NCBI RefSeq assembly: GCF_040214835.1
Contig: NZ_CP157874.1
Location: forward strand, 5,420,501-5,484,500
DNA: 64,000 nt
Origin: Pseudomonas asiatica
GTDB lineage: Bacteria > Pseudomonadota > Gammaproteobacteria > Pseudomonadales > Pseudomonadaceae
Direction: 5' to 3'
Shown: piece after piece, positions 39,438 through 50,190 of the stretch
Layout of the letters: every line of letters starts with the position of its first letter
How positions within the stretch are numbered: position 1 is the first letter of the stretch
The notes under the pieces: model-generated
Databases searched by the model: none
What the model was told of the DNA's origin: nothing
The model's input: only the letters and a program-made list of their open reading frames with translations
Translations under genes and position numbers: made by a program

Positions 39438-39842
39438 ATGAAAACGACCCTGATCGCCGCGGCCGAAGTCGACCGCCTGGAGACCTGGCAGCGCTACACC
39501 AGCAACATGTGCCATGACTGCCATTCGACCTGCTGCACCCTGCCGGTGGAGGTGAAGATCAAGGATCTGATCCGTATCGGCGTGGTCGACGAGTTCGAGA
39601 AAGACGAACCGCCGAAGAACATCGCCAAGCGCCTGCAGAAGGACGGCATCATCGAACGCTTCAACCAGAAGTCGGGGATCTTCACCCTGACCCGGATGAG
39701 CAATGATGACTGCCTGTACCTGGATCGTAAAAGCCGGCTGTGCACCATTTATGACAAGCGGCCGGATACCTGCCGCAACCACCCCAAGGTCGGGCCGCGG
39801 CCGGGGTATTGTGCGTACAAGCCCAAGGTGGTCGGGCGCTGA
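39438..39842 (+). CDS. YkgJ-family cysteine-cluster protein
   Basis: A 134-residue protein of the YkgJ (CxxCxxxCC) family, believed to bind zinc or an iron-sulfur cluster. The cysteines are in CHDCHSTCC (about residues 30-38), DDCLYLD, LCTIYDKRPDTCRNHP and a final GYC. Eight Cys in so short a protein support metal binding. Function of the family is unknown. It is divergent from glgP and convergent with typA, separated by a repeat pair and a terminator. Confidence 0.9.
   Translation: MKTTLIAAAEVDRLETWQRYTSNMCHDCHSTCCTLPVEVKIKDLIRIGVVDEFEKDEPPKNIAKRLQKDGIIERFNQKSGIFTLTRMSNDDCLYLDRKSRLCTIYDKRPDTCRNHPKVGPRPGYCAYKPKVVGR

Positions 39843-47293: not shown

Positions 47294-47297
<4 letters not shown>
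46212..47297 (+). CDS. glnL: NtrB (GlnL), nitrogen-sensing histidine kinase
   Basis: A 361-residue cytosolic kinase/phosphatase that controls NtrC in response to PII. An N-terminal PAS domain covers about residues 10-120, the phosphoacceptor is His142 in LAHEIKNPLGGIRGAAQLL, and the ATPase domain has the N box IVRNAMQAI, DNGPGIP and GTGLGLAI motifs. The ATG at 46212 is chosen over upstream in-frame codons because it gives the normal N-terminus. The stop overlaps the ntrC start by 4 bases. Confidence 0.97.
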
Positions 47298-48730
<1,433 letters not shown>

Positions 48731-48755: not shown

Positions 48756-48857
48756 GGGGCTGCTGCGCAGCCCATCGCGACACAAGGCCGCTCCTACAGG
48801 AGAATGCGATCCCCTGTAGGAGCGGCCTTGTGTCGCGATGGGCCGCAAAGCGGCCCC
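48756..48857. repeat. Paired inverted repeat (TAGGAGCGGCC type) after ntrC
   Basis: Arms catcgcgacacaaggccgct and complement framed by ggggctgctgcgcagccc and gggccgcaaagcggcccc hairpins. It separates ntrC from the nrsZ promoter region. Confidence 0.9.
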
Positions 48858-48876
48858 AAACATTTCAGCCCTTCGA

Positions 48877-48913
48877 TGCACCGATCCTGTGCCCGATGCA
48901 CCTCTCGAAGGCA
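48877..48913. promoter_or_regulatory. Two NtrC-like half-dyads upstream of nrsZ
   Basis: TGCACCGATCCTGTGCC (48877-48893) and TGCACCTCTCGAAGGCA (48897-48913) each carry a perfect left half TGCACC and a degenerate right half. They lie 65-100 bases upstream of a strong sigma-54 promoter. Confidence 0.65.
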
Positions 48914-48976
48914 CAAATCCCCCGCAAAAACGGCCAAATCACCCTGAAAACCCATAATTGACGGGCTTTTCAAAAC

Positions 48977-48992
48977 TGGCACGCCCCCTGCA
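48977..48992 (+). promoter_or_regulatory. Sigma-54 promoter of nrsZ
   Basis: TGGCACGCCCCCTGCA has an ideal -24 element TGGCACG and GC at 48990-48991, ten bases after GG at 48978-48979. The predicted start is about 49003, just before the first repeat module. Confidence 0.88.
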
Positions 48993-49002
48993 ATAACCCA
49001 TA

Positions 49003-49175
49003 CATATCCAGTTTCGGGGGCCCTGGTACAGGCAGGCCGGGTGAACCCCTCTTTTATTCGCAACATCGCCAGTTTTGGGGACCTCGGTACAGGCAGGCCG
49101 GGCCATCCCCCCTTTATACGCAGTACCCCTTTCGGGGACCCTGGTACAGGCAGGCCGGGATATCCCCTCTTTTAT
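49003..49175 (+). ncRNA. nrsZ: NrsZ-like nitrogen-regulated small RNA (three modules)
   Basis: After ntrC there is no open frame but three imperfect direct repeats of 57-61 bases, aligned on ggtacaggcaggccggg at 49025, 49086 and 49143. Each module folds: outer arms ggggN / Ncccc enclose the core, and each hairpin is followed by a T-rich run (cttttatt or ctttata). A sigma-54 promoter with NtrC-like sites lies just upstream. In P. aeruginosa, NrsZ is an NtrB/C- and RpoN-dependent small RNA encoded next to ntrC that is processed into three similar modules of about 60 nucleotides, the first being sufficient for function. Position, promoter and triple structure all agree. Ends are predicted, not mapped. 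Confidence 0.82.
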
Positions 49176-49609
49176 TCGTGCAGTTTCACCTGCAACCGCC
49201 AGCGCCCAGCGTCCTCTGCACCGGCCCACTCGCCGTGCAGGGGGCGCGCGGCCACCACCGTCAGCAACAGACCTTCCTTGCTATTCTGCACCCGCCAGCT
49301 CACAGGCTTGCCCTGCAGGCTCAGTTGCCCTTGCCGGGCCTTGCCCTGGGCCTGGAACAACAGTGCTACCGTACCTTCCACATTCTCGCCATGCAGCTGA
49401 GGCTCTTCGTTGAACCACAGCTCCAGGCCATCCTGCACCACCTCCACCTGCTGCAGCTCGCGCTCGTCGGGCGTGGTCAGGCGGCCAATCATCAGCCCCA
49501 CCATCAAGCCGACGATCGCCAGCGACAGCATCACCCGCGGGAACGCCTTCGAACGCAGGTCCGGTTCGGGGGTAGAATGCCCGTCATCTTCACGCTTGGA
49601 GCCGTGCAT
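49172..49609 (-). CDS. Hypothetical single-pass membrane protein
   Basis: A 145-residue protein I do not recognise. A hydrophilic N-terminus (residues 1-25) is followed by one transmembrane helix (VMLSLAIVGLMVGLMIGRL, about 27-44) and a soluble domain of about 100 residues with beta-strand character (QDGLELWFNEEP, GTVALLFQAQGKARQGQLSLQG, GRWRLQVKLHE) that should lie in the periplasm. Its start codon overlaps the trmL start codon on the other strand through a shared CATG. Its stop touches the end of nrsZ. Confidence 0.75.
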   Translation of the reverse strand: MHGSKREDDGHSTPEPDLRSKAFPRVMLSLAIVGLMVGLMIGRLTTPDERELQQVEVVQDGLELWFNEEPQLHGENVEGTVALLFQAQGKARQGQLSLQGKPVSWRVQNSKEGLLLTVVAARPLHGEWAGAEDAGRWRLQVKLHE

Positions 49610-50069: not shown

Positions 50070-50078
50070 GCTGTAGCC

Positions 50079-50187
50079 TGTGCCGGCCTCTTCGCGGGTA
50101 AACCCGCTCCCACAGGAACCAAACCAACCTCAAGGGCGGCGCTGTACCTGTGGGAGCGGGTTTACCCGCGAAGGGGCCGGCACAGGC
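50079..50187. repeat. Paired inverted REP element (GGGAGCGGG type)
   Basis: Long inverted arms from cctgtgccggcctcttcgcg to the matching end ggggccggcacagg, between the convergent trmL and secB genes. Confidence 0.9.
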
Positions 50188-50190
50188 AAC

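Follow-up and report, generated by a model that had tools for sequence, protein, structure and literature searches.

Genomic locus and family assignment

The window examined here is a 64,000-nucleotide stretch of the Pseudomonas asiatica genome (contig NZ_CP157874.1). Within it, ntrC, the gene for the nitrogen-limitation response regulator (47294 to 48730, forward strand; Pfam Response_reg, Sigma54_activat and HTH_8), stands directly upstream of a predicted small RNA transcript (49003 to 49183, forward strand), whose start was derived from a promoter match and whose end was taken from an Rfam match. Facing this transcript is a convergent gene of 145 amino acids (49172 to 49609, reverse strand) for which no Pfam family was found. 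Two REP-like palindromes are discernible by eye in the vicinity, one at about 48757 to 48855, just 3′ of ntrC, and the other at about 50076 to 50190, following a gene that we take to be trmL-like. The initial annotation had described the gap 3′ of ntrC as free of coding frames. Mechanically called reading frames of 80 to 119 amino acids do span the gap; the five gap-crossing frames scanned matched no Pfam family.

An NrsZ-like small RNA had been proposed for this gap in the initial annotation, with an Infernal search as the means of checking it. This search returned the Rfam family RF02695 (NrsZ) at 49005 to 49183 on the forward strand, with a score of 116.5 bits and an E value of 6.8e-30 (gathering cut-off 76.9). 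RF02695 was the sole Rfam family above cut-off across the entire window, and the NrsZ family was matched once in the whole genome. A single-module model gave three strong matches in the same genome, the next best being no better than E 0.117. The locus is identified as NrsZ because of the RF02695 match, its single occurrence in the genome and the three strong module matches, and its place, promoter and NtrC-like sites are concordant with this identity. As regards place, the available passages of two papers on P. aeruginosa position NrsZ of strain PAO1 between ntrC and PA5126 (PMC9308961, PMC8395346), and the P. asiatica RNA lies correspondingly between ntrC and the convergent gene, as had been claimed; the label PA5126-type that we use for this gene refers to its position as given in those passages rather than to a sequence comparison with PA5126. 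The two RNAs also have in common a σ54 promoter and the motif ACAGGCAG in repeated hairpins, and the NtrC control of the PAO1 RNA has its counterpart here in NtrC-like sites. They differ in that the modules of the P. asiatica RNA are short (57 to 61 bases) and without a linker hairpin, its family match spanning 179 bases against the 236 positions of the RF02695 model. The P. asiatica RNA is confirmed as an ordinary, compact member of a family that had been described before.

Promoter and NtrC-like sites

The sequence TGGCACG-N5-TGC (TGGCACGCCCCCTGC) at 48977 to 48991 on the forward strand bears out the earlier claim that the RNA has its own σ54 promoter (−24/−12). Since this match has the GG-N10-GC spacing, transcription is expected to start near 49003. 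Among relatives, the first module was preceded, at a distance of at most 110 bases, by a loose TGGCAY/TGC match in all 112 loci that had been found without use of the promoter, a set in which the P. asiatica locus is counted four times. TGGCAC itself occurred in 102 of 105 distinct sequences, and the pattern was matched in only four of 2360 control windows from the same loci. On these counts the predicted promoter is not a chance match, the loci being related and the counts for promoter and NtrC-like dyad accordingly not independent. The distance from promoter to loop was scored in 232 loci, which are the 235 collected minus three without an exact module (L035, L036 and L074), and of which 120 had been found through the promoter pattern itself. 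It was 48 to 52 bases in 176 loci, 64 to 66 in 50 and 56 to 59 in four, with single loci at 71 and 75 bases.

Further upstream, both of the NtrC-like sites noted in the initial annotation were recovered. The first, TGCACC-N5-TGTGCC (48877 to 48893, forward strand), agrees with the E. coli consensus at 10 of 12 positions. The second and weaker site, TGCACC-N6-AGGCAC (48897 to 48914, forward strand), follows 20 bases on, a distance of two helical turns. When 17 putida-type promoters were aligned, TGCACC of the first site was present in 16 (CGCACC in the other) and TGTGCC in all 17, and TGCACC and AGGC of the second site were retained in most; the pair, with its spacing of 20 bases, forms a footprint against less conserved flanks. 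A dyad scoring at least 10 of 12 against the E. coli NtrC consensus was found upstream in 64 of 106 loci, where about 1.4 were expected from shuffles that moved dinucleotide blocks. The upstream region is compatible with the predicted control by NtrC and σ54.

Hairpin modules and linkers

The predicted transcript contains three hairpins, all on the forward strand: module 1 at 49016 to 49049, module 2 at 49077 to 49110 and module 3, a probable terminator, at 49134 to 49167. Exact ACAGGCAG loops occupy 49028 to 49035, 49089 to 49096 and 49146 to 49153, giving a spacing of 61 and 57 bases, and the hairpins are followed by the tail CTCTTTTATTC in modules 1 and 3 and by CCCTTTATAC in module 2. Folded singly, each module formed one common hairpin in which the 8-base loop is open, in agreement with the three modules first described. 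No clear gain in stability over shuffles was seen for the single modules (z 0.28, 0.54 and −0.39), and the minimum-energy fold of a 198-base segment was weaker than shuffles (z +1.49), with modules 1 and 2 disrupted. Folding energy alone is no evidence for the hairpins; the predicted structure is supported by covariation between relatives.

Covariation was assessed in 73 distinct modules, taken from 31 loci that include the one in the window and selected by exact loop, so that conservation of the loop within this set is circular. Pairing was found in 95.7% of cells. Five of the 12 pairs varied on both sides, compared with 1.8 in shuffles, and 27 cells were changed on both sides, compared with 2.5. 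When one arm was shifted by 1 to 3 columns, pairing fell to between 34 and 73%. The number of pair types was not above chance in these 73 modules (14, against 13.6 in shuffles). The initial annotation had noted that the arms pair in every copy while the bases around them change, and had suggested selection on structure; the both-side changes, and not folding energy, support the paired structure. The 10-base loop UACAGGCAGG was without mismatch in 605 of 613 modules from 232 loci and in 202 of 208 distinct modules, in a count that allowed up to three mismatches, required at least one exact loop per locus and included some genomes more than once.

A second hairpin, likewise with covariation, is present in most of the linkers examined from multi-module relatives and absent in the window. 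Among 299 distinct linkers, the 231 of at least 35 bases had more stable folds than shuffled sequence (mean z −2.83, with 85% below −1.5). The 65 linkers of 18 to 34 bases had a mean z of −1.82, with 52% below −1.5, and some short ones thus fold too. For the 25 shortest linkers, 22 values lay between −1.35 and +0.85, the second linker of the window scoring +0.13, and no linker hairpin appeared when the window's modules were folded together with their linkers. In 28 linkers hand-chosen as alignable from 50 diverse ones, themselves drawn from 102 of fitting length, five of the eight consensus pairs varied on both sides with pairing retained.

Distribution, module number and gene order

When the RF02695 model was run on 199 genomes of the genus, 197 gave a match at E 0.001. 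The Rfam cut-off was reached in 132, and the lower scores of the other 67 are put down to their having one or two modules only. A comparison of module number, which the initial annotation had called for across the P. putida group, was carried out on the same 199 genomes and gave a range of 0 to 8: no module in two genomes, one in 60, two in 38, three in 68, four in 19, five in seven, six in one, seven in three and eight in one, as counted with the single-module model under strict filters that weak modules may escape. Two genomes of the genus, both draft assemblies (G037 and G157), had no NrsZ match under looser filters either. Sampling within the family gave matches in 157 of 198 genomes, spread over 15 of 19 genera. 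Of 293 genomes drawn from the order, members of the family among them, 14 matched; 13 of these were within the family, and no credible match was obtained outside it. The sole outside-family hit (L074, 28.3 bits) has no exact loop and coding-like surroundings and was taken as a chance match.

One genome that was scored negative by the strict search contains, directly after an ntrC-like end and with TGGCAC upstream, a worn single module (L375, 1450 to 1560; 22.7 bits) with the loop TTCAGGCAGG and eight T after the stem. This is probably a worn single-module NrsZ, and absences within the family may therefore be overcounted.

The history of module number was followed on a FastTree phylogeny of the convergent gene from 172 loci, from which loci without the gene, with N or with identical sequences were omitted. 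At least 50 changes are needed on this tree, compared with 88 to 104 in 30 label shuffles, indicating that module number follows descent yet changes often. Long arrays contain runs of equal spacing, of 81 bases four times over in L002 and of 83 bases four times over in L003, which may have arisen by unequal recombination between repeats. A survey of the NrsZ literature by titles and abstract starts found no paper on module number, and a survey by titles of the literature on P. putida small RNAs and ntrC found nothing on this locus.

A like convergent gene was present downstream in 201 of the 232 loci, and an ntrC-like stretch ended no more than 900 bases upstream in 167 of them, several others being short of upstream sequence. 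In the tree set, 161 loci had sufficient sequence on the upstream side; ntrC was adjacent in 135 of them and was not found there in 26. A place after ntrC is therefore usual for NrsZ and not defining. In one of the 26, L141 from P. syringae GAW0119, a gene that we read as porin-like precedes the single module. This locus, L062, L219 and L225 all keep the downstream convergent gene, but no ntrC was found immediately before the promoter. For another genus of the family, coded g15, 16 loci of about 3 kb each were examined, and none of them showed ntrC or the convergent gene. These loci (L038, L070 and 14 others), together with L108 and L146, have a single-module NrsZ with a σ54 promoter apart from both genes, an arrangement that suggests relocation.

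Proposed mode of action and related small RNAs

The features of the locus can be arranged in a simple model. During nitrogen shortage, phosphorylated NtrC would bind about 80 to 100 bases upstream and activate RNA polymerase carrying σ54 at TGGCACG-N5-TGC. The transcript, of about 180 bases, would contain three copies of one hairpin and end with the T-rich tail of module 3. The loop ACAGGCAG of each hairpin would serve as the seed in pairing with a target RNA, and single modules, freed by processing or by early termination, could act alone. For P. aeruginosa NrsZ, the available passages describe control by NtrBC and RpoN, processing, activity with the first 60 bases alone, the ACAGGCAG motif and activation of rhlA translation (PMC9308961, PMC8395346). 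The initial annotation had attributed triple processing to the P. aeruginosa RNA; alongside a transcript of about 226 nt, the same passages instead report species of about 40 nt and about 140 nt (PMC9308961, PMC8395346). By analogy, the control, processing and activity of the P. aeruginosa RNA would hold in P. asiatica as well. Family membership, paired structure by covariation, conservation of the promoter and NtrC-like sites and the array itself are established here at the level of sequence comparison. Overall, we put the probability that the locus is the NrsZ gene of a putida-type Pseudomonas, with the proposed activation by NtrC and σ54 and action through the loop seed, at roughly 0.93.

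NfiR of P. (Stutzerimonas) stutzeri A1501 resembles the RNA described here in being a small hairpin RNA with a promoter of the NtrC/σ54 type, for which the available passages report NtrC binding and a predicted σ54 site (PMC6606865). It differs in standing beside a nasA gene and in that its nifD pairing stretch is not the complement of ACAGGCAG; identity with NfiR was set aside on this published place and pairing site, by description rather than by alignment (PMC6606865).

The presence of NrsZ in P. asiatica bears out what was already known of nitrogen control, and the remaining interest lies in the turnover of hairpin number with an unchanging loop. Natural strains with one to eight hairpin copies behind a like promoter make the effect of unit number directly amenable to study.

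Candidate partners of the loop

Complements of the loop were sought in the P. asiatica genome. CCTGCCTGT occurred at 80 places and CTGCCTGTA at 53, three of them in each case being NrsZ itself, and the corresponding backward patterns occurred at 14 and 13 places; the excess over this control may be due to codon use and REP elements. With one place near 39710 in the window omitted, 116 of the 117 distinct places outside NrsZ were classed by a crude home-made codon score as sense in genes (67), antisense (25) or between genes (24), the last class including at least one apparent signal-peptide start. Among the exact loop complements in this genome, neither of the two leader sites followed was kept through close relatives.

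Two leaders were compared individually. A gene that we read as LysR-type has CCTGCCTGTA, a full loop complement, 45 bases before its start. A search for this gene at E 1e-100 in 19 genomes matched the P. asiatica genome alone and missed its nearest relatives; the gene is in fact present in all 13 putida-type genomes, with its leader conserved as a block (L295, 1400 to 1545, and L381 to L393). Within the block, the 8-base CTGCCTGT is found in five of the 13 genomes, all 10 bases in four and CCTGCCT in 11. The block may be simply the promoter of the gene, and the leader is a weak lead as an NrsZ target. A gene that we take to be miaE-like, with CCTGCCTGT at about −27, was dropped after CTGCCTGT was found to be kept in four of the 13 close relatives in which the start was found, five more distant relatives without a located start being left out of this comparison. 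Elsewhere in the P. asiatica genome (L282, L288, L294, L349, L352, L353 and L355), loop complements of the form CTGCCTGTACCGGCC, or near forms, lie at the edges of REP-like elements, where 9 to 12 bases are by eye complementary to the loop and 5′ arm. The composition of REP sequence probably produces this complementarity by coincidence.

RsmY/RsmZ and CrcZ of Pseudomonas likewise carry a binding motif in several copies per RNA, and CrcZ in addition depends on σ54 and is encoded downstream of a gene for a response regulator; the motifs bound in these RNAs differ from the NrsZ loop. The NrsZ array could similarly act by number, as a decoy of the RsmZ/CsrB or CrcZ kind in which the loops or short copies soak up a protein or RNA that recognises UACAGGCAGG and the number of hairpins sets the strength. 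Such a role would accommodate the near invariance of the loop, a hairpin number of 1 to 8 where NrsZ is present with its at least 50 changes on the tree, and the incomplete retention among close relatives of the loop complement in both mRNA leaders tested, although two leaders are a small sample. It is harder to reconcile with the single module of 60 of 199 genomes and with the composition of the loop, which has neither the RsmA motif (AnGGA) nor the A-rich Hfq/Crc motif. The RsmA-bound GGA loops of RsmZ/CsrB-type decoys are likewise missing, ACAGGCAG being without GGA in all three modules. In P. aeruginosa, moreover, the first 60 bases suffice, and the available passages describe NrsZ as acting on rhlA mRNA, which sets it apart from the RsmY/RsmZ and CrcZ decoys (PMC9308961, PMC8395346). 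We regard a decoy function as unlikely.

The NrsZ loop is intact across the loci examined, and rhlA, the only target named in the passages available, comes from P. aeruginosa (PMC9308961, PMC8395346), which suggests that the RNA may have a partner of a more general kind. A broader proposal would be that the dose of NrsZ is set by the number of hairpin copies, in arrays that expand and contract between 1 and 8 units through recombination between the repeats, that a separate linker hairpin spaces the units in many lineages but is gone from the compact putida form, and that the invariant UACAGGCAGG acts on a genus-wide partner other than rhlA. We offer this combination as speculation, and consider it doubtful as a whole.

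The 3′ end of the transcript

In 187 of 232 loci the last module is followed by TTTTATT or a closely similar sequence, which is the case for 35 of 384 inner modules. In the window, the convergent gene has its stop codon inside the T-rich tail of module 3. Two constraints overlap in this tail, and the stop codon could by itself conserve it. We infer a terminator role for module 3; a simple terminator scan reported none at the locus.

The modules might instead be repeated terminators and not units of processing, with partial release of polymerase giving rise to nested transcripts of one, two and three modules. The tail of module 1 in the window is in keeping with this, being of the last-module type and the same as that of module 3, but the rarity of the full tail in inner modules of relatives and the outcome of the terminator scan are not, and processing is described for P. 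aeruginosa NrsZ in the passages available (PMC9308961, PMC8395346). A series of terminators is thus an improbable account of the array. It is extremely improbable that this DNA is an untranscribed repeat or the antisense tail of the convergent gene, since the termination of that gene within the module 3 tail and the REP-like palindromes nearby are outweighed by the family match, the covariation and a conserved promoter held within a narrow range of distances.
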